Below are positions 1,606 through 32,045 of a DNA stretch of 34,571 nucleotides, piece by piece (the stretch's first letter is position 1; each line of letters opens with the position of its first letter). The stretch comes from Turicibacter sp. Its GTDB lineage: Bacteria > Bacillota > Clostridia > Lachnospirales > WQUN01. The DNA lies in contig WRKH01000318.1 of NCBI GenBank assembly GCA_009778175.1, positions 1-34,571 on the forward strand, read 5' to 3'. Below the pieces are notes generated by a model, which saw only the letters and a list, made by a program, of their open reading frames with translations, was not told the origin of the DNA and ran no database searches. Made by a program: the position numbers and the translations under genes.

Positions 1606-3324
1606 CTATTCCCGATACTTTGCGTTGTTTAAGCAGACACCGACCATTTCCCGAACCAAGGTGCTGACAATAAAGAGGACACTACTGTCCATACTAGAGA
1701 CAGGGTCGTCAATAACCACGATTTTGTCCTTGCCAACATCGGCATCTTCATGAGCGCCACGGACGAGGTGGTAGAAATACAGAAACGCTATGAAGTTCCT
1801 CTCACCCTCGCTGAGTTTATCAGCAACAGTTCCGTTTTGACGTATGACCTCGTAGGCATTAGGAACGTCGCACTTTTCACCTAGAGTGAACCCCTGAAAG
1901 CCCGAATCACGAAGCAGATCGTTAATACTTTTGATGGTTGGTGCGGTGCTGACCACACGTTTATTTAGGTCTGCGATTTCAATTCCCAAATCTCGTGCTA
2001 TTTTCCCGCCGTCTGTAATCAGCTTTGACAAAGCGGTTATTTCATCATCAATGACTTTACGCTTGGACTTATATGTAGAAACGTCAACTTTAAGCGTAAA
2101 CGAAATGAGTTCCCACACTTTTGTTGTACATTCGGCTTGTTTTTGCCGCTTTGCACCGACAATGGCGTTGTTGGCTTGAATCAGCTTGTTAAACTCCTCG
2201 ATGAGAGTGTTTATCTCGTCTCGAAGAGGTTTTACATTCTCAAGAGTTACCACATTGGAGGGTTCTCTTAGCTTATCCGCAATCAAACGAGTATTCGTTT
2301 CTATCATTTTTCCCAAGAGGGCAACTTTATCTTTGTATTCTGTTAGATCAAGTTTAGGGTAAGTATTTAGTAAGTTGCCGCTCAAAATATCAAGAAAACC
2401 CCGCATATCACTTGTATAGTCTTGTTGAAACTGCTTGATAGCATCGATGTCCTCTTGGTATTGCCCGTCAAAACAGGCAACGATTTGCTCTTCAAAATCG
2501 TTGGGCAGTTCTTGTTGGCAATAAGGGCATTTTCCTTTCGGTGGTTCAGCAAAGCGTTCATGCCCCTGACGTACCCAGTCTGTGGCATTAATTGCTTTGA
2601 TAAATTCAGCAAAAGGTGTGCCGCTACTGCTCACGATGGTTTTCGCCAGTAACTCGTTTCCACGAGTGCCTTTTAGTTTCGTGTTCCCGCCTGTTGGCTG
2701 AAATTCCCTATATGAGGTAGCGTTCGGGTCAAATGCCGTCTCATACAATGTTCTCAACTCATTAATATTGTGCTGAACAGGGTTTGCGAGTTGCAAAACA
2801 CGGTCTACGAACTTTGATCTAGATTGTTTATAACCTTTTTGTGTTGAAGAGAACTCCTTGCGGATAGTTTTCGTCTTATCCCAGCAAACTTTTTGAAAGT
2901 TGCTAAGCAAATTGTTTCGTTCTGTATCCTTTTGATTGCTTTTTGTAATGTTCTCGCCATTCAATCGCTCCTGTTCGGCTCGTTCCGCAGTCTTTTTATC
3001 AATTTCTGTTTGAATCTTGTCGTTCTGCTCTCCTATGGTGAATACGCCTTTTAGCTTACCGTAGTCTTTGAAGTTTGCACTTACAAATTCCTGATTGTAG
3101 ATAAGCATAGAATAGTCATTCGCAGATTTTCCCTGCTGCCATGCCAAATCTGCTGGCTGCCCTGTTTCAATATCCTTAGGGTCAATCGCCCGTGCAATCG
3201 TCGATTTACCCGTCCCATTATTGCCATAGAAAAAGTTTATCAAAGTTGGCTCTATCGTAACGCCATTAAATGTTGCGGAATTAAGCATAATTTTTTCGAT
3301 TGCCGAAGTCATTTTAGTGTTCAT
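1606..3324 (-). CDS. AAA_13-type ATPase (RloC-like), probably C-terminally truncated
   Basis: Walker A GNNGTGKST, DDPVSSMDS Walker B/D-loop, KLSEGERN signature, coiled-coil middle with CPYCQQ; ORF stops right after the DDPVSSMDSSVLF segment where family members normally continue. Confidence 0.75.
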   Translation of the reverse strand: MNTKMTSAIEKIMLNSATFNGVTIEPTLINFFYGNNGTGKSTIARAIDPKDIETGQPADLAWQQGKSANDYSMLIYNQEFVSANFKDYGKLKGVFTIGEQNDKIQTEIDKKTAERAEQERLNGENITKSNQKDTERNNLLSNFQKVCWDKTKTIRKEFSSTQKGYKQSRSKFVDRVLQLANPVQHNINELRTLYETAFDPNATSYREFQPTGGNTKLKGTRGNELLAKTIVSSSGTPFAEFIKAINATDWVRQGHERFAEPPKGKCPYCQQELPNDFEEQIVACFDGQYQEDIDAIKQFQQDYTSDMRGFLDILSGNLLNTYPKLDLTEYKDKVALLGKMIETNTRLIADKLREPSNVVTLENVKPLRDEINTLIEEFNKLIQANNAIVGAKRQKQAECTTKVWELISFTLKVDVSTYKSKRKVIDDEITALSKLITDGGKIARDLGIEIADLNKRVVSTAPTIKSINDLLRDSGFQGFTLGEKCDVPNAYEVIRQNGTVADKLSEGERNFIAFLYFYHLVRGAHEDADVGKDKIVVIDDPVSSMDSSVLFIVSTLVREMVGVCLNNAKYRE

Positions 3325-3406
3325 AGTCTAAATCCTCCGTTCGTTTCTTTGGTTTGTCTTTGAAAGAGCGTCGTATTCCTTACGGAACGTTTCGGACTGT
3401 TCAGTT

Positions 3407-6400
3407 TTAGCCCTGCACAACTTCCCAAAGCCTATCATAACTATCCACAACATCATATTTAACACTTTCGCCGCTAATAGCCCGAAAATGCTCCCTCGCG
3501 CAATGTGCTTTAGCCTCCTCAATTTTACGCAACTCCATCGAGGAAATATCCCCTTTAGTTTCGGCAACAAAATAAATATGCTTAACCTTGCCCTCATAAA
3601 ACGCAATCGCCCAATCTGGATTATACTTGCCCACAGGAGTGCTTATATAAAACCCTCGCGGCAATTTTACGTAAACTTCAACCTCCTGGCTGTGTTCCTC
3701 TAGTTTTAGGGCAAAATCACGCTCGTTGGCGGAATTGTAAATTACATAATCGTACAGACTGCGTTTCGCCGCCATTGCGTTTACGCCGAGATTTCCCTTT
3801 TTGAGATTTGGCTCGGTAAATATCTCTGTGCCGAAAACGGCGGTCAATTTGTCGTATGTGATATGCTCGATAATCGCCGTGGCTTTCTGCTCATTTATGA
3901 GATTAGCGGCACGGATAATGTATTCTTCTGGATTGTCTCCAAACTGCTCAAAAATAGCTTTATCGAGACCGACCAAAATTTTTGCCACGGCTTTTCGAGT
4001 AAGCCCTGTTTCCGCTACTATTTTGCCGACAAGATCGTAACGCACGAAAGAATTCGCTTTAATAGTTGCGTATTTCATAGTTTCTTCTCTCACTATATTA
4101 CTGCGAACAAAAGCCGAGCCTTCCTGCAACTGCTCTTTGGATTCGATATTTTTCGTCTGCTCGCCAGTTTCTACTTTGAAATAAATCTTGGAAACACGCA
4201 ATTTGGCGTTCAATTCCTTGACGGATTTTTCCACTAATTCGTCTTCGTCAAAATCTACCACATAGTAACTCTTGTGGTTAATGCATGTCCACAACTCTTG
4301 AAATGCCTTACTGTTTAGCTTGTTCTTATCAAGCGTTACCTCAACGGTATTTTTTCGGGCGTTTTCGGGCTTGTTGGCATTTGCATCGTAAATGGAATCG
4401 AGAACGGCGATAATTTCGGCGGCTTGTACGGCGGTTTCTTCTGAGATTTCAATCGTGCCGTTTTGCTTATCTTGGTAATATTTTTCGGTAAGTTCGCCAC
4501 GTTTTACATAGCCGTTTTGGATAAGATTCTCGTGAATTGCAATAGCGATTTCCTCGCCGAACTTTTCGGCGAACAGTTGCGGCTCCACTTTGCGTGGACG
4601 GTCGGCGACCGTTTCGGCGATTTCGCTTTGCAGCCCTTTCGCAAAATCGTCATAGCTTTCGTTTGCGATAACCGTCAAAACGTTGATATTATGCACTTCC
4701 TCACGAGATAGCAGCGTTTCGTCCATGCGTTCGCCGCTCTGATTTACCGCCAGCCGCAACCCGCGCCCAACTTCTTGCCGCTTGCGAACATCACTTCCGC
4801 TTTGCTTTAAGGTGCAAATTTGAAACACGTTCGGGTTATCCCAACCCTCGCGAAGAGCGGAGTGAGAGAAGATAAACCGCACAGGCTCACGGCGGTCGAG
4901 CAGACGTTCCTTGTCTTTCATAATTAGGTCGTAAGCGTCCGCATCGTCAGAGGTGCGTTCTTTTTTATTACCGAGTTTGCTGTCTACCATGCGACCGCTT
5001 TTTTTATCGATGGAGAAATAACCTGCGTGTGTCCGCTCTGCTTCAATTCCGTCAAGGTACGCAAGATACTCTGGTGTGTCGGATAGGGCAAGTTGTATAT
5101 TACCGACGATTGATTTGTACTCTTCCTCAAAAATTTCGGCATAAGTGCCGCCTTGGGCGTTACCCGCCGTGTCATATTGCTTATATTTCGCCACCTCATC
5201 TATGAAGAACAGCGATAAGACTTTCACGCCTTTTGCAAACAACTGTCGTTCCCGCTCGATGTGGGATAAGATGGTTTCTCGTATTTGAATACGGCGTAGC
5301 TGCTCCTCGCTGACTGCACCAATAACGTCCCCCGCAAACAGCTTTTTGCCGTTTATAAATTCAACAGAAGAATCCCTGCCGTCAATCCTCAGAACGATGT
5401 ATCCGTCTTTGTACTCGGCGAGTTCGCCGGAATTGTCGAACAGGTTGTATCCCTCGGTAACTACACGTGCCACCTTTCGTACACCCGAACCACTTTTCAT
5501 ATCAAACTCAATCGTAGCGGTCGGGTTGCCTTTGGAAAGGTTGATGCTCTGCACATAAACATAACCCTCGGTGGCGGTGCTGCCCGTTACCGAAATGCCT
5601 TTTACTGCTATTTTCTTTACGAGCCGCTTGTTGTAGGCTTCAAGTGCATCAAGGCGGTAAATCATATTGTACATACTGTCGGCTTTGTGAGTTGCTGAAT
5701 AACGGAGCGTGGCGAGGGGAGCAAATTCCTTTAAGCGCTCCTTGGTAGCAGCGCCTTCAACCGACTGCGGCTCGTCGATTATCAAAATCGGGTTCGTTTT
5801 CGCCAAAATATCAATCGGGCGGCGAGAACGGAACTCGTCAAGTTTCATATAAATACGTCGAGCGTTCTTGCCCCTTGCGTTAAATGCTTGGCTGTTGATT
5901 ATCATAACGTTTATTGCACTGTCCGATGCGAAACGGTCAATCTCGGTCAACTGTGCCGAATTGTAGATAAAATAACGGATTTTCTTCCCATAGTCCTCGG
6001 AAAAATGCTCCTCGGTTACTTGGAACGATTTGTACACGCCCTCACGAATAGCTACGCTCGGCACAACGATTATAAATTTGCTCCACCCGTAGCGTTTGTT
6101 GAGTTCGTACATGGTTTTTATGTAGGTGTACGTTTTGCCAACTCCTGTTTCCATTTCCACGGTTAGGTTGAACCGCCCACCGTGCCTATCGGCAGGCAGG
6201 CTTAGCGAATCGGACGGCTGAATTTTGCCCTGCCGTTGGATATTTTGGATATGCTCTAAAATTTTGCTGTCGTCAAGCACAACTGGCGCATTGCTGAATC
6301 CTGTGAAATCTTCTTGTTGGTTTAGCGATATTTCGCCCAAACCAGAGTCTATCATATAAGTTGGAGTGCGAAACGGTTGACCTGCGAAAACTTCGCAAAC

Positions 6401-6454
6401 TGCCGTTGCTGCATCTGCTTGAAAAGGTTGGTGCTTGAATTGTAGTTTCATCAT
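3407..6454 (-). CDS. res: Type III restriction enzyme, Res subunit (DEAD/DEAH helicase plus endonuclease)
   Basis: 1015 aa; METGVGKTYTY Walker A, ILIIDEPQSVEG motif II, LRYSATH motif III, QEVGRGLRLAVNQ motif VI-like, C-terminal AETKGD nuclease-like segment; overlaps mod by 4 nt. Confidence 0.9.
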   Translation of the reverse strand: MMKLQFKHQPFQADAATAVCEVFAGQPFRTPTYMIDSGLGEISLNQQEDFTGFSNAPVVLDDSKILEHIQNIQRQGKIQPSDSLSLPADRHGGRFNLTVEMETGVGKTYTYIKTMYELNKRYGWSKFIIVVPSVAIREGVYKSFQVTEEHFSEDYGKKIRYFIYNSAQLTEIDRFASDSAINVMIINSQAFNARGKNARRIYMKLDEFRSRRPIDILAKTNPILIIDEPQSVEGAATKERLKEFAPLATLRYSATHKADSMYNMIYRLDALEAYNKRLVKKIAVKGISVTGSTATEGYVYVQSINLSKGNPTATIEFDMKSGSGVRKVARVVTEGYNLFDNSGELAEYKDGYIVLRIDGRDSSVEFINGKKLFAGDVIGAVSEEQLRRIQIRETILSHIERERQLFAKGVKVLSLFFIDEVAKYKQYDTAGNAQGGTYAEIFEEEYKSIVGNIQLALSDTPEYLAYLDGIEAERTHAGYFSIDKKSGRMVDSKLGNKKERTSDDADAYDLIMKDKERLLDRREPVRFIFSHSALREGWDNPNVFQICTLKQSGSDVRKRQEVGRGLRLAVNQSGERMDETLLSREEVHNINVLTVIANESYDDFAKGLQSEIAETVADRPRKVEPQLFAEKFGEEIAIAIHENLIQNGYVKRGELTEKYYQDKQNGTIEISEETAVQAAEIIAVLDSIYDANANKPENARKNTVEVTLDKNKLNSKAFQELWTCINHKSYYVVDFDEDELVEKSVKELNAKLRVSKIYFKVETGEQTKNIESKEQLQEGSAFVRSNIVREETMKYATIKANSFVRYDLVGKIVAETGLTRKAVAKILVGLDKAIFEQFGDNPEEYIIRAANLINEQKATAIIEHITYDKLTAVFGTEIFTEPNLKKGNLGVNAMAAKRSLYDYVIYNSANERDFALKLEEHSQEVEVYVKLPRGFYISTPVGKYNPDWAIAFYEGKVKHIYFVAETKGDISSMELRKIEEAKAHCAREHFRAISGESVKYDVVDSYDRLWEVVQG

Positions 6455-7545
6455 ATCACCCTCACATTCGTATTTGGTGCAATCAGCTTGAAAATCTCAA
6501 ACACATTTATTTTTTCGGGCGAACTGGCGAAACTGCTATCACGAAAAACGGCACGTAGCGGCTTGCGTTCGGCTATTTCACGGATTGCCTTTTCGCTGAT
6601 TCGTTCCTCAAAACAGGCGATAAGGTCGCCATCGTTGTAGGTGTGGACGGTAAAGCCGTCGATTTTCTCGTGGCTGTGCGGCATGGACAGCGGCAAGCCC
6701 CAGTCGATCAGACAGCTGTAGAGCAAGTCCATATCGGTGCGGTCGGGCTTGATGTTGTTTTCCATCATCAAAATCATATCCTGCGTGTAGTCGCTTGCCG
6801 CATAGTACACATCATTCATGTTGGTATCATCGAGTTTTAGGACGCGAAAACCGATATCTAACCACGAAAAACACGAATCGCACGAAAATAGTGTTCCTTT
6901 ATTTTCATTTTTCGTGTCTTTTGTGCTTTTCGTGGTTATCATATCTCCAGCACGGCGTATGCGTTCTTTGCCGATTTTGCAGATGTTTTTGTAGCCAGCC
7001 TTAAATGCCTCGGATTTTTCGTCGCATATTTCGGGTAATTGCACCATGATAAACTTGCGCTTGCCGCCATCCTCGGCATTGAGTTGCATAACAGCGTGGG
7101 CGGTGGTGGCAGAGCCAGAGTAAAAATCTAAAACAATATCTCCATCAGTAGTGAAAGCCTGCACGTGTTCTTTGACGATATTTACCACTTTTGGGGTGTC
7201 GAACGGAATCCCCAGTTCAGCAAGTAAGTCAGTGTCGCTACCGCCATAATAAAGCAACGATGGGATATTTTCGTACATATTTTCTTTCAGAAGATATTTT
7301 CTGTTAGGTTGAGTCGTTTCATCTTTACCAAACAGAATTAAACCCGCACTCAACAACTCTTTCATTGTAGCTGAAGGGTTGCGCCAACCCCTCTCTGGCA
7401 GGGGACATGGCTTTTGTGTTACTGGGTGTATCAGAGGAATAAAATAGTTATCGGGTGCCTTTTTCTTGTTTGGCCATGCCATTGAAACTGGTCTATAAAC
7501 ATCACCATTTTGGTCTATTCGATTATATGCTTTCTCACCACCACT
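6451..7545 (-). pseudogene. mod: Type III modification methylase (Mod), N-terminally truncated
   Basis: SGGEKAYNRIDQNGDVYRPVSMAWPNK...LFGKDETTQPNRKYLL...VLDFYSGSATTAHAVMQLN (motif I). The DPPY-bearing N-terminus is missing; upstream codons read antisense into holin/endolysin DNA. Confidence 0.8.
6860..6937. repeat. Palindromic element inserted in-frame in mod
   Basis: AACCACGAAAA...TTTTCGTGGTT ends with interior partly complementary; translates as TTKSTKDTKNENKGTLFSCDSCFSWL between conserved Mod segments. Confidence 0.6.
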
Positions 7546-7666
7546 AACGTATTTCTTTACGAAAAAGGATGTAAACTCCGAAAAAAACGGAATTAACCGC
7601 CACGCCAGTCGAAGAGGAAGAAATACCGACCTATTCATTATGGAAGAGCAGAGAGGAGAGGAAAGC
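7545..7666 (+). pseudogene. 3' remnant of a phage holin gene (paralogous to 30947-31249)
   Basis: acgtatttctttac...gaattaaccgccacgccagtcgaagaggaagaaatacc matches the reverse complement of the right-hand holin with one frameshift (TYFFTK...KKTELTATPVEEEEIPTY). Confidence 0.65.
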
Positions 7667-8743
7667 ATGGGACGAAAAATAACGGAAAAACCGATAATCT
7701 GCATAGATGCAGGACATGGCGGAAACGACCCAGGAGCGGTGGCAAGCGGCTTGCGAGAGTCGGAGATAAACCTTTACGTGGCATTGGAGTTAGGGAAAAT
7801 ATTGGAACAGAAAGGCTGTGAAGTGTGTTACACACGGCGACTGGACGTTGCCATGGGGATAAATGCGAGGGCAAAATACGCTAATAGCCACGCTGCGGAC
7901 TTTTTTATATCAATACACACGAACGCTGGCGGCGGCACAGGAGCAGAGACGTTCATCGCACCGAATGACCGACAGAGCCTTGATTTTGCGACCGCTGTTA
8001 ATGACAGATATGCTACCAAAATGGTCTTACGAAATCGAGGCGTTAAGCTAGATTCGACCACTCGGCACGGCTCTTTGGGTGTGCTTAGGAATACGAAAAT
8101 GCCAGCTATATTGTTGGAACTTGCGTTTATCGACAGTCCAGTCGACAACCCTGATTTAGGGATTTTGTGTGGCAAGCGGCAAAAAATGGCGGCGGCTTTG
8201 GCGGATGGCGTTTTGGCGTTTTTGGGGGTTGAAAATGAACAACCGAATATTTCTCAACGGTTGCAAATCGACATATTAGGACGTGTCGAGACAGTCGGCG
8301 GATTTATCGAAAACGGAGCGACCTTTGTTAGATTAACGGATTTTGCCATGACGTTGGGATATGAGGTTAGTTGGGACGAGGTGCGGCGGTTGCCTGTGGT
8401 TATTTCCAAAATGGAAAATACCTCTCCAACTGTGCAGATTCACAACCTCACGGCGGACGAGATTCGTTTGCTCGAAATGGTCGTACATCACGAATCTCGT
8501 GGCGAGGACTTGAAAGGGCAGACCTTGGTCGCCAACGTGATTTTAAATCGTATGACAAACAATAACGCTTGCCTTGCGGACGTGATATTTCAGAGCGGTG
8601 CATTTAACGTGGTTGAGCGAGCGGATTTTTACGATGCCCAGCCGGCCGAACTCACGAAATCGGCTGTGTATAATGCTTTACACGGCTTTGACTATTCGCA
8701 GGGAGCGACTTTTTTCCATGCAATTTCTAGCATTTCCCCCTAA
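7667..8743 (+). CDS. Phage endolysin, copy 1: N-acetylmuramoyl-L-alanine amidase (Amidase_3) plus cell-wall hydrolase domain; prematurely stopped
   Basis: IICIDAGHGGNDPGA...FISIHTNAGGGTGAETF...LLELAFIDSP; second domain LTADEIRLLEMVVHHESRGEDLKGQTLVANVILNRM. In-frame TAA at 8741-8743, then FWHEKAVKAGTLVKIFDHGGHRFYKLV readable to 8827. Confidence 0.85.
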   Translation: MGRKITEKPIICIDAGHGGNDPGAVASGLRESEINLYVALELGKILEQKGCEVCYTRRLDVAMGINARAKYANSHAADFFISIHTNAGGGTGAETFIAPNDRQSLDFATAVNDRYATKMVLRNRGVKLDSTTRHGSLGVLRNTKMPAILLELAFIDSPVDNPDLGILCGKRQKMAAALADGVLAFLGVENEQPNISQRLQIDILGRVETVGGFIENGATFVRLTDFAMTLGYEVSWDEVRRLPVVISKMENTSPTVQIHNLTADEIRLLEMVVHHESRGEDLKGQTLVANVILNRMTNNNACLADVIFQSGAFNVVERADFYDAQPAELTKSAVYNALHGFDYSQGATFFHAISSISP

Positions 8744-13516: not shown

Positions 13517-14987
13517 TTATCCTCGGTGGTCTAGGTCATTTTTGGACAAATCTTCATTCTCGTCCATTTCTGACCCTTCAGAGGGCATATCCCCAAATCC
13601 GCCAAATCCACCATCCATCTCGTCAGGCGGTGCAGCGATGTCGTCTGCTGCCTCGATATCCTCGTCTGTTATCGAGTGCCACATATCCGTAATACCTGCG
13701 TGTGCCGACAACTCCTGTAATGCCGTCCGCTGGCTAATCACGCCCGAGGTGTACGCCCCTGTAATTGCGGTGGTTATCTGTGTGGCAAATCCCATTTTTT
13801 CGGCTTCCGTGGGCGTTTGGATATTCTCGAACGTGTACTCCAAATCATCGGGAATCGCTCCCAGTGCCGACATACAAAGAATTGGCAACAGCTTATCATA
13901 AATCGGTCGCAAGACGGACTCCTGTTTTTCCGCAATCGAATCATAATAAATCTGCATATCCGAGTCGCCCGTGGCGTTCATTCCCGAGGGCGACCGCATA
14001 AACAGCTTTGTAACGGGAATTTCCGCCGCCCCTGCGATGTCGAGCATAAACAACTCCATAACCTGTGAAAGTCCAGAAAATGCCGTGTTTGTGAGGTTGT
14101 GCATCTGGTCTTCCACGCACAGTATCTGCATACCTTGGTTGTTCATCGTGGCTGACAAAATATCCATTTCTGTGAGCATCTGCTGGCGGACATGGTCTGG
14201 GACAATCGACATCTGCTCGAAACCTGCCTTTTTGTAGACAAGGAGATTCGCCCTAAAAATCATGGTCGCTATGTTAAAATTCGTGTTATCCCATTTTTTG
14301 AGTTCGCTGAAAATGTGTTCGAGTTCGGATGCGCCCCAGTGATTCTCGATAAGTCGCTCGATATAGGGTAAATCCCGCCCAGGGAATTTGACCACACGGC
14401 TATGATGCACCTTAGTAAACTCACGAGAAAGTATGTCCGACTGTAATTTGATAATATTCAGGCTCGCCGAAGTTTGGGCTTGTATAGTCGCTGATTAGCC
14501 TATCTGACGGCATTATCCCGCTGTGCCTATCGAGGATTATCATGCCTTTAAAATCGTCTGGCATGATGTCATCGAGTTCGAGCGGCTCGTCCAAAATATT
14601 GTCATGGCGGTCGATTATGATAACGCCAGCCGCGCCGCCGTAGAGCCGCCCCCATTTTAGCCCTGTGAGCAAGTCCGAGCGGAGGCGAGTTTGCCGTTCC
14701 ACACGTTTTAGCGACCGCATTGCATCGGCATCCAGCCGTGAGATTAGGCTGTATGATTGCTTTAGCATATCTTCAGGGACTACGTCAATCAGCCGTTTGA
14801 CTATCCAGTTATTGCGATAGAGGGCGGTCATTAGGTTTACGTCCGCCGTCAGCCGATTGATAAAATATTTTGAGTGTTCTAGTAGATTGTCCGTGAACTC
14901 GCCTATCCGTGCCGCTGGGTTGGAGAAACCGTCTTTTGTGTATTTTGCCGCTGTTTTTGCGGGCGGTTTTTTGTGTTTTTTTGCCAT
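13517..14987 (-). pseudogene. Phage portal protein (DUF1073-like), frameshifted
   Basis: ORFs 14421-14987 (LTADVNLMTALYRNNWIVKRLIDVVPEDMLKQ) and 13517-14410 (HHSRVVKFPGRDLPYIE...IPVTKLFMRSPSGMNATGDSD) are parts of one protein; ILSREFTKVHHSR is read in the second frame. Confidence 0.8.
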
Positions 14988-15012: not shown

Positions 15013-15041
15013 TTGCTTTTCGCTTCTTTCTGTGTTATAAT
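15013..15041 (+). promoter_or_regulatory. Sigma70-type promoter TTGCTT-N17-TATAAT of solitary repeat unit 1
   Basis: TTGCTT 15013-15018, TATAAT 15036-15041, 17 nt spacer; predicted start about 15048. Confidence 0.7.
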
Positions 15042-15047
15042 GTTTTT

Positions 15048-15139
15048 TGTAATTGTCGCATCCCTATGGGGTGCGTGGATTGAAATTAACAAAACGTATA
15101 ACACATCGAAAAAGGCGCTGGATTATTCCAACGCCTTTT
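15048..15139 (+). ncRNA. Solitary CRISPR-repeat RNA 1 (candidate type I-C RNA anti-CRISPR)
   Basis: 15055-15086 GTCGCATCCCTATGGGGTGCGTGGATTGAAAT (32 nt, stem GCATCCC/GGGGTGC, loop TAT); followed by terminator-like hairpin AAAAGGCG-C-TGGA-TTAT-TCCA-A-CGCCTTTT at 15110-15139. Confidence 0.75.
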
Positions 15140-23865: not shown

Positions 23866-25881
23866 TCAAGCCGTGGACAAAATCCCCTGCATAGTGCGGT
23901 CAACGGCACGCGCTACGCTGTCGGGTCTGCCCGAGGTGTCGTTTATATTGTAGTTTGAGGGAGCGGAAACGCTGTAATAATTATTCACGGTGTTGCTTTG
24001 GCTGGTCGATTGCGGCAGCGGAGCGGAAAGCCCAGCATTTAGGCAGTTCATGGCGGCTGCCCACGTCCTAGGAAATCGGCGACATTGCACAAAATCTCAC
24101 GGACACGGTCTGGTTTCGAGAGCGGAATTATTGCCTCGGGTTGGTTGCCCTCGGCGAAACGGGCGATATGTTCACGGTCGAAAATGCCGCCGTCTGCGTG
24201 TCCGTCCAGTTCGAGTGATGCGTTTGACGAAAAACCGCCGCCGAAGAGCCGTCCGCCGATGCCGCTTAATCTCAAAAGCGGACTCGAAAATCCCTTGGAA
24301 AAACTCGATAACAGGCGTGAACAGCTCGACAATCGAATCCCACAGGGCTTGAAAAGTCTCGACCACTCTATCCCACAAGTCCTTAAAAAACGCCGCAATC
24401 GTGTCCCAGTGCTTGACCAGCAGAACGGCAATCGCAATAACCGCCGCAATCGCCGCCACAACAAGGAAAATCGGCGAAGTCAACACGGCAAAAGCGGTGG
24501 CGAGTACGGTCATCGCCCCGCCGAGTACGCCAGTTATGACCACCCAGACGGTCTTTATCGCAATGAGTGCACCGATTGCGACAACCAAGCCAGTTATGAT
24601 TTTTTGGACGATGCCGAACTGTATAAACCACGAGATAACACTAGCCACGCCAACCACGAAATCGGCGATATGCCCAATAATCCCAGGCAAAGCCTCGGCG
24701 AGTAGCCATTCAAGAAACGGTTCGAGATATTCTCCGCTTGAGTCAGCGACAATGCCCAAGCCGTCCGCAAACCTCAAACCCCGCAATAAAGGTGTTTGCA
24801 ACCTCTTTTAGGGTCTCGAAAACGGTTTTGACAGCCGTTCCGACTTTCTCGAACGCCTCTTTGAAATTTTCGATAATGCCACGCTCTTTTAGCCGTCCCC
24901 AAAACCGCACGATCCAGCTGATAACCTCATGAATCACACGGGCGGCTGTCTGTGCGAACTGCGAAATCTTATCCTTAATCTGGTCAATCAATCCGCCTCC
25001 CTCGGAAATCTTCGCCCACAGGTCAATTAAAATCTGCCAAAATGTACCCAGAAGCGACTGCCGCCGTCAAGATACGTGAAGAAATCGTCCAGCAAGAGCA
25101 ACAAGACAGAGAATAACGTCATCAACTTTCCAATCGGTCCCGTTTTTAGGAACGCTACAAACGCCCCAAAAACACCTGTCAACACCTTGACTTCAGAGGG
25201 AATCATATCGAAAATCCGTTTGAGCATATTAAAAACCACCACCCCGCCACGCAGAAATGCGGTTGTCATGTGCACGACTAAGTTCATCACGGCGGCGATG
25301 CGTTTTGTCCAGACTGGCAATTTGTCAATCAGCTTGGCGTTAAAATTTGCAAAAGTTTCTCGCAACTTTTCCATGGGCTTTTGTAGGTATTTTAGCAAGT
25401 GATGCCCGACCCATTGCAGGGCTTGGCTGGCGGTGTTTTTGAGCCTCGCCCATTCGCCTTGTATGGCTTGGACTTGTGCCAAGCCCTCGGACATATCGGG
25501 GATGCCGATTTTGGCGGAGTCGGCTTTCAACTGCTCGAACTGGGCGAGCAAGGTCGGATTAGCTTGGATTTCTTCGAGGGAGCGACCCATGGCTTGCAGG
25601 GCGAAGTGGGTTTTGTGGGCTTCTTCTTTGGAAATTTCCATGCTTTCGGCTAGTTTGCCGATGGTTTCGTCTGTTTTGACCAGTCCGCCCAGGAAATGGG
25701 CAATGCATTTATTGGCGGCAATAAAAAGCCCCGCAAATGCGAGGCTTGCCGTTTTTACGCCTTTTGCCAGCCCTTGCATCTTGCTTGATGCGTTTTTCAT
25801 GCTCTTATCAAGGGCTGGCGAAAAATTGTCTTTGATGCCTAAGGCGACTAAGTATTCTTTCATTATTGAGGCGTTTGTCAT
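23866..25881 (-). pseudogene. Tail tape measure protein with several frameshifts
   Basis: MTNASIMKEYLVALGIKDNFSPALDKSMKNASSKMQGLAKG...; continuity across frames near 25050, 24790, 24270 and 24070 (DREHIARFAEGNQPEAIIPLSKPDR). Confidence 0.8.
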
Positions 25882-25906
25882 GGTATCACTCCTTTTTTGA
25901 CTTTTT

Positions 25907-25935
25907 TTGACACATTAGCGGAGGTGTGTTATAAT
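25907..25935 (+). promoter_or_regulatory. Perfect consensus sigma70 promoter TTGACA-N17-TATAAT of solitary repeat unit 2
   Basis: TTGACA 25907-25912, TATAAT 25930-25935, 17 nt spacer. Confidence 0.85.
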
Positions 25936-25941
25936 ATTTTT

Positions 25942-26039
25942 GTAGATGTCGCATCTCTATGTGGGTGTGTGGATTGAAACGGGTTCAATATTGGGCGACC
26001 TCTAACCCCGCCCCTACACAATTTCGTAGGGGCGGGGTT
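25942..26039 (+). ncRNA. Solitary CRISPR-repeat RNA 2 (candidate type I-C RNA anti-CRISPR)
   Basis: 25948-25980 GTCGCATCTCTATGTGGGTGTGTGGATTGAAAC (33 nt); downstream 14-bp perfect stem AACCCCGCCCCTAC/GTAGGGGCGGGGTT at 26004-26039. Confidence 0.75.
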
Positions 26040-26060
26040 CGTCCGTCTGTGGTATTCAAC

Positions 26061-26731
26061 CTATCGGGCGGCTTTCGCCTCCTGTACCGCCTGTTCGTTG
26101 GCTAATCGTTCATTTTCGCCTTGAATTTGCATTGCCTCAATGATGTCAAGCAAATCATCGAGGCTATACGTACCGTCCCAAGTTTCATGCTGCCGCCAAT
26201 GCCCCGCAATGACGGGAGCAAATAGCATTTCGCCTATATTTACGGCTGAGACGGGAATAAATTTCTCAACTCGCCGAGGACTGAACCCGAGCGATTCTCT
26301 TGAAAAAAACCCCGCACTGAGTGGACGAGGGATTCAATCGTCAGCCGCAACATGACGAGCAAATCGTCTTCAACGCCAGGGACATTGTAAGTGCCGTTTG
26401 GGTTCAAGACCTGCACCGAGCCAGCGGGCAAAATCTCGTAGCAGTTGGCAAGCCCCGCATTTATCAGCTTGTCCAGACTTTCATCCTCGATATTGTCAAG
26501 GGCGTTGGCTATTGCTATCAAATCGAGGTTTTCTAAAAACTTGTCGATGTCCTTATCGGACTTAACAAACTCCGCTATTTTAGACGGTGCGACCGTCCCG
26601 AAAAATGGGACTGCACTCGCTAACAAGGTTTTGGCGATTTTCAAACTTACGCGTGCGGGCATTTTCTTAATTTCAAACGTCCTGCCCTCTCCGCCTGCCG
26701 AATTGGCAGGTATTTCTATTGTTTTTGTCAT
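26061..26731 (-). CDS. Tail assembly chaperone, made as short form (to 26240) and -1 frameshift extended form (to 26061)
   Basis: MTKTIEIPANSAGGEGRTFEIKKMPARVSLKIAKTLLAS...; A_AAT_TTA heptamer at 26264-26258, then -1 frame IPVSAVNIGEMLFAPVIAGHWRQHETWDGTYSLDDLLDIIEAMQIQGENERLANEQAVQEAKAAR*. Confidence 0.75.
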
Positions 26732-31790: not shown

Positions 31791-31819
31791 TTGACATTTT
31801 GCCATGTTCTTGCTATAAT
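31791..31819 (+). promoter_or_regulatory. Perfect consensus sigma70 promoter TTGACA-N17-TATAAT, opposite to the operon
   Basis: TTGACA 31791-31796, TATAAT 31814-31819. Confidence 0.75.
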
Positions 31820-32045
31820 AAACATTCTGCCGCCGAAGAACACTATTGCGGAATCTGTTATGGCGGTGGCTCGTTTTATGTCGGATTTTTAACAATAAAA
31901 ATCGTGCAACTGTTACACTAGTGTAATATCCTCAAGGTGTAAGTCCGACCGCTTTCGATATAATTCCGCTAGTTTTTGTGCGGCACATTTCCGTGTTATC
32001 CCCCTAATTTCGATACCAAAATTTTGAATTTTTCTGTTTTTCATG

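Follow-up and report, generated by a model that had tools for sequence, protein, structure and literature searches.

The window (the whole stretch of DNA analysed, 34,571 nucleotides) carries on its minus strand the phage gene order tail sheath, virion structural protein, tail chaperone and broken tape measure. A plus-strand cassette lies in the 179 bp between the chaperone stop and the tape-measure start at 25881, and the promoter, single repeat and hairpin of the original prediction were all present there:

25027–25881 (−): broken tail tape-measure gene, 5′ part (sequence search)
25882–26060 (no strand): intergenic gap around the cassette, 179 bp (comparison with phage L314, mapping of the frameshift extension)
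25907–25935 (+): sigma-70 consensus promoter, TTGACA-N17-TATAAT (sequence, dinucleotide shuffles)
25948–25980 (+): solitary type I-C-like CRISPR repeat with stem arms 25950–25956 and 25963–25969 (sequence, fold, alignment)
25970–25980 (+): intact 11-nt I-C 5′ handle, TGGATTGAAAC (sequence, alignment of 22 solitary repeats)
25981–26003 (+): 23-nt tail from repeat to hairpin (sequence, phage-collection search)
25994–26046 (no strand): dispersed palindromic element of the host, GTAGGGGCGGGGTT type, with the 14-bp hairpin 26004–26039 as its core and no T-run (genome comparison)
26240–26731 (−): tail assembly chaperone (sequence search)

The chaperone open reading frame (ORF) stops at 26240, and another frame, entered from the T7 stretch at 26303–26309, runs to a stop at 26061–26063. 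We infer a −1 frameshift extension after the T7 stretch, which we liken to known G/GT-type chaperones; the extension (26061–26309, −) ends ...WRQHETWDGTYSLDDLLDIIEAMQIQGENERLANEQAVQEAKAAR, and the C-terminus in the related phage L314 is similar. The predicted placement between tape measure and tail chaperone can now be narrowed to the gap between this extension and the tape-measure start. L314, whose tape measure is 43% identical, has a chaperone extension of the same kind; there only 4 bp separate the end of the extension from the tape-measure start, and the junction holds no repeat. Because a related phage has only 4 bp at the same junction, the cassette looks like the insertion of a small-RNA ‘moron’.

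The suggestion that the prophage is defective is plausible, as two ORFs in different frames make up the portal gene (13517–14987, −) and the tape measure is in pieces (about 24000–25881, −); these breaks reflect either a decaying prophage or an assembly error. The window is identical to IMG/VR contig 2820303403_000003 and to metagenome contig JGI24700J35501_10930888, and such contig names presumably denote termite-gut data. Elsewhere in the window, 1606–7704 (−) encodes a type III restriction enzyme and a methyltransferase whose family match is confined to the C-terminal part of the family, as well as an AAA_13 protein that matches the PADLOC candidate PDC-S06.

The cassette promoter matches the consensus at 12 of 12 positions (TTGACA at 25907, TATAAT at 25930–25935), with a TG at 25927–25928 forming an extended −10 element, and RNA is predicted to start at about 25942–25944. 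When the upstream 67 nt were dinucleotide-shuffled 200,000 times, 10 shuffles contained such a 12/12 promoter. The repeat begins at 25948, 12 nt beyond the promoter end. The I-C pattern GTCGC-N9..20-GTGGATTGAAAY occurs at two places in the window (15055 and 25948) and in none of 300 dinucleotide shuffles. Given both shuffle results, the combination of promoter and repeat is far beyond chance. The claim that a phage carries a solitary I-C-like repeat behind its own promoter is borne out. One other perfect TTGACA-N17-TATAAT is found in the window, at 31791 (+), in a stretch of about 580 bp without a called gene; a possible hairpin (CCGCC...GGCGG) follows, and 31791–31900 (+) is maybe another small RNA.

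The repeat, GTCGCATCTCTATGTGGGTGTGTGGATTGAAAC (33 nt), is single copy at up to three mismatches in both the window and the whole genome. In the canonical I-C register its stem pairs C3–G22, G4–U21, C5–G20, A6–U19, U7–G18, C8–G17 and U9–G16, unbroken, with three G–U pairs and no bulge, leaving the 11-nt handle UGGAUUGAAAC on the 3′ side. Handle length follows from the known processing by Cas5d/Cas5c, and TGGATTGAAAC is expected to lie just 3′ of the Cas5c cut. The original prediction had reported a bulged T and took it as a possible sign of tuning or decay. RNAfold did favour a bulged fold, which shifts the stem base, by only 0.6 kcal/mol (−6.9 against −6.3 kcal/mol for the canonical register); the bulge belongs to this competing fold, whereas the canonical I-C stem is continuous, and the reading as tuning or decay is not supported. 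The stem also covaries across 21 solitary repeats (from unrelated loci, this genome and one member of its family): of 84 variable-pair cells, 70 were paired, against a shuffle mean of 55, and none of 5,000 shuffles equalled this, although kinship, which can inflate pair counts, applies to few of these mostly unrelated loci. MAFFT aligned the stems poorly, and pairing was counted by script from both ends. At gathering score, Rfam returned no family; at the repeat it gave only a sub-threshold CRISPR-DR9 match.

No second repeat was found within 400 bp of the 25948 repeat, or of the other loci from our promoter–repeat scans, and there are no spacers at the 25948 repeat. Among those ORFs of the window that were annotated there are no cas genes, the cassette's neighbours being phage structural genes, in agreement with the earlier description of a repeat alone, with neither spacers nor cas genes. 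The locus is one intergenic repeat on a mobile element with no repeat neighbour and no adjacent cas gene, and it lacks the two or more repeats with spacers that make an array or mini-array. Decay of the prophage, and a host genome in which no cas1 or I-C cas gene was found, would suit the relic of an array or mini-array that had lost its spacers and cas genes and kept one repeat. We disfavour this origin and consider it improbable: there is no degenerate second repeat within 400 bp, the promoter is just 12 nt from the repeat, the same solitary layout recurs at unrelated loci, one genome has such repeats at five separate places between genes without any of them being an array, and the relative's junction is without the cassette. 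The check put forward in the original prediction, whether an array continues at this site, came out against a relic, as none does so either here or in the relative.

The hairpin at 26004–26039 had been predicted to be part of the unit. Palindromes of the GTAGGGGCGG type are common on other contigs of the same genome, and a near-identical one with longer arms lies 3′ of a host gene on contig C205, a gene that we take, from its translated end, to be accC. The hairpin is thus not specific to the unit. As a dispersed host palindrome without a T-run, it was rejected as a unit-specific terminator and is best seen as a host repeat that happens to be downstream. If the tail before it served as a spacer, the RNA might direct the I-C complex of a host against a promoter or a rival element; with its intact handle, then some 23 nt and a hairpin, it formally resembles a mature I-C crRNA. 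Such a guide is very improbable, however, as a search of the phage collection with the 23-nt tail matched nothing (the whole locus gave one weak match), about 10 of its 23 nt overlap the dispersed host palindrome, and tail length and sequence vary between loci.

The second occurrence of the I-C pattern in the window marks a sister repeat, unit 1:

15013–15041 (+): unit 1 promoter, TTGCTT-N17-TATAAT (sequence)
15055–15086 (+): unit 1, a sister solitary I-C repeat, between the terminase and portal genes
about 15110–15139 (+): unit 1's own terminator (sequence)

Unlike unit 1, the 25948 unit has no T-run terminator behind it. Unit 1 lies within a 284-bp terminase–portal gap. By portal gene, L316 and L317 are the nearest relatives, and their corresponding gap measures at most 58 bp; no I-C repeat occurs in any of the other 79 portal relatives fetched. 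Because the corresponding junctions in relatives are short (4 bp and at most 58 bp), both units look like insertions.

Altogether, the same genome carries seven I-C-like solitary repeats, spread over five intergenic places and four contigs, of which three are phage-like:

C318 (the window): two repeats, phage-like
C317: two repeats, flanked by a baseplate gene and one further gene
C294: upstream of a minor tail/tape-measure gene and a prophage tail endopeptidase gene
C319: two repeats, on a contig encoding LPD25, DUF6674-like, sortase and HipA proteins

Contig C319 looks mobile and is not clearly phage. A promoter matching at least 9 of 12 consensus positions lies directly upstream of six of the seven repeats. 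The two C319 repeats (L157, 7866–8022, −) are I-C-like but diverged, stand in tandem and share the leader TAAGAAATGGYAACACTT; both have an 11/12 promoter of their own.

Scans of metagenome and virus collections that required a promoter before the repeat yielded about 13 further distinct loci with the promoter–repeat layout. Most of these have an intrinsic terminator after the repeat, as judged by eye, and many adjoin phage tail, portal or lysis genes. With the promoter condition dropped, 48 of 182 I-C-like matches in viral contigs were solitary, and almost none of the 48, besides the window's own, had a good promoter; stand-alone promoter–repeat cassettes are therefore the less common layout. 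Among the IMG/VR loci (L167–L244), many solitary I-C-like repeats are promoterless, and several of them, in sense orientation, closely precede the start of a gene. At L277 (3898–4459), a promoter and I-C-like solitary repeat immediately precede an ORF whose product has a TnpB-type (OrfB/IS605) helix-turn-helix domain. Matches to TATAAT plus repeat in genome contigs were nearly all array repeats with a chance TATAAT in their spacers and were set aside, the solitary ones kept being L023, L035, L040 and L052; at the last, in a Synergistales genome encoding Cas8c, the lone I-C repeat has both a −10-like TATAAT and a terminator.

The cassette runs antisense to structural genes, and at four of this genome's five places the repeat is antisense to the genes on either side. 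Together with the lack of any I-C cas gene found, this would fit a small RNA with no CRISPR target now, either an antisense regulator of the late-operon transcript or a passenger in an I-C-free host. Orientation bias over all loci is weak, however (11 of 17 promoter-bearing against 15 of 38 promoterless repeats are antisense to the downstream gene, only a trend), and an operon regulator would not need an I-C stem and handle conserved across unrelated loci; we regard this explanation as unlikely.

Single repeats in phages can act as small-RNA anti-CRISPRs, with RacrIF1 and RacrIC1 as two functional cases; a promoter often precedes solitary repeats, and I-C crRNAs are processed by Cas5 (PMC10651486). 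That survey counted 2,103 solitary repeat units on viral sequences, and 83% of prophage units matched a host cas operon (PMC10651486). The cassette fits the survey's sequence definition, and its repeat resembles those of subtype I-C in sequence and structure, down to the processing stem and handle, as expected of an RNA anti-CRISPR (Racr). Like RacrIC1 of a Bifidobacterium pseudocatenulatum prophage, it is a phage-borne solitary I-C repeat with no adjacent cas gene; RacrIC1 is co-transcribed 11 nt downstream of acrIC5, whereas this candidate has its own perfect promoter and no known acr gene was identified adjacent to it (PMC10651486). It shares with RacrIF1 of a Thiocystis violascens prophage an intergenic position, its own strong promoter, a single repeat and a short RNA (predicted for the cassette), but RacrIF1 mimics I-F repeats and is processed by Cas6f, while the cassette mimics the repeats of I-C, where Cas5 is the processing enzyme (PMC10651486). 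Viral CRISPR mini-arrays are another use of CRISPR repeats by viruses, but they have at least two repeats and virus-targeting spacers (PMC11656645), of which the cassette has none.

Because the promoter, the covarying stem, the intact handle, the solitude, the closed junction in a relative, the recurrence and the published precedent all point the same way, we propose that the cassette is probably a stand-alone, moron-like small-RNA gene and a candidate Racr against type I-C; the RNA-decoy idea of the original prediction is, as a candidate, the best reading of the sequence evidence. In this gene the promoter is followed by one CRISPR repeat and then a tail, and RNA polymerase would start about 5 nt before the repeat. 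A host Cas5c, the I-C processing enzyme, would bind the repeat stem-loop and cut after it. The Cas5c-bound hairpin, the handle-plus-tail fragment, or both, offering no useful guide, would then occupy Cas5c, Cas7 and Cas8c, and the resulting non-productive Cas complexes would compete with real crRNAs. The host-repeat hairpin at 26004–26039 may by chance stabilise the 3′ end of the RNA.

The main weakness of the Racr reading lies in the putative target of the cassette RNA. A same-subtype CRISPR system in the host, typical of Racrs (about 83%) and not defining for them, was not found here, in contrast to the surveyed prophage units: no Cas8c, Cas7 (PF05107) or Cas1 was detected in the host genome (91% complete). 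As a positive control, the Cas8c search found the gene in most named genomes with I-C arrays. Among 38 genomes of the same family Cas8c was present in only one, whose repeat starts GACGC and has the handle CGGATTGAAAC. Also counting against the Racr reading are the missing T-run terminator, the lack of a comparable promoter at most solitary I-C-like repeats of viral contigs, and the broken structural genes of a prophage that may be decaying. A matching I-C defence may be encoded by other strains or other hosts, or lie in the 9% that is unassembled. There is also a small chance that several unrelated mobile elements keep I-C-like solitary-repeat RNA genes as mobile non-coding morons in an I-C-poor lineage, the RNAs acting on another Cas or RNA-processing protein or guarding against hosts met elsewhere.

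The trick has been known since a 2023 report, and the cassette is a convincing new example rather than a new kind of system. To the type I-C RNA anti-CRISPR candidates it adds a compact, self-contained case of promoter plus repeat, from a genome in which four contigs, three of them phage-like, hold five such cassettes. The closed junction in a relative indicates that insertion of such RNAs between essential structural genes is possible. It makes testable whether phages trade non-coding anti-CRISPRs as they trade protein ones, and why these are kept where the matching defence is not seen.
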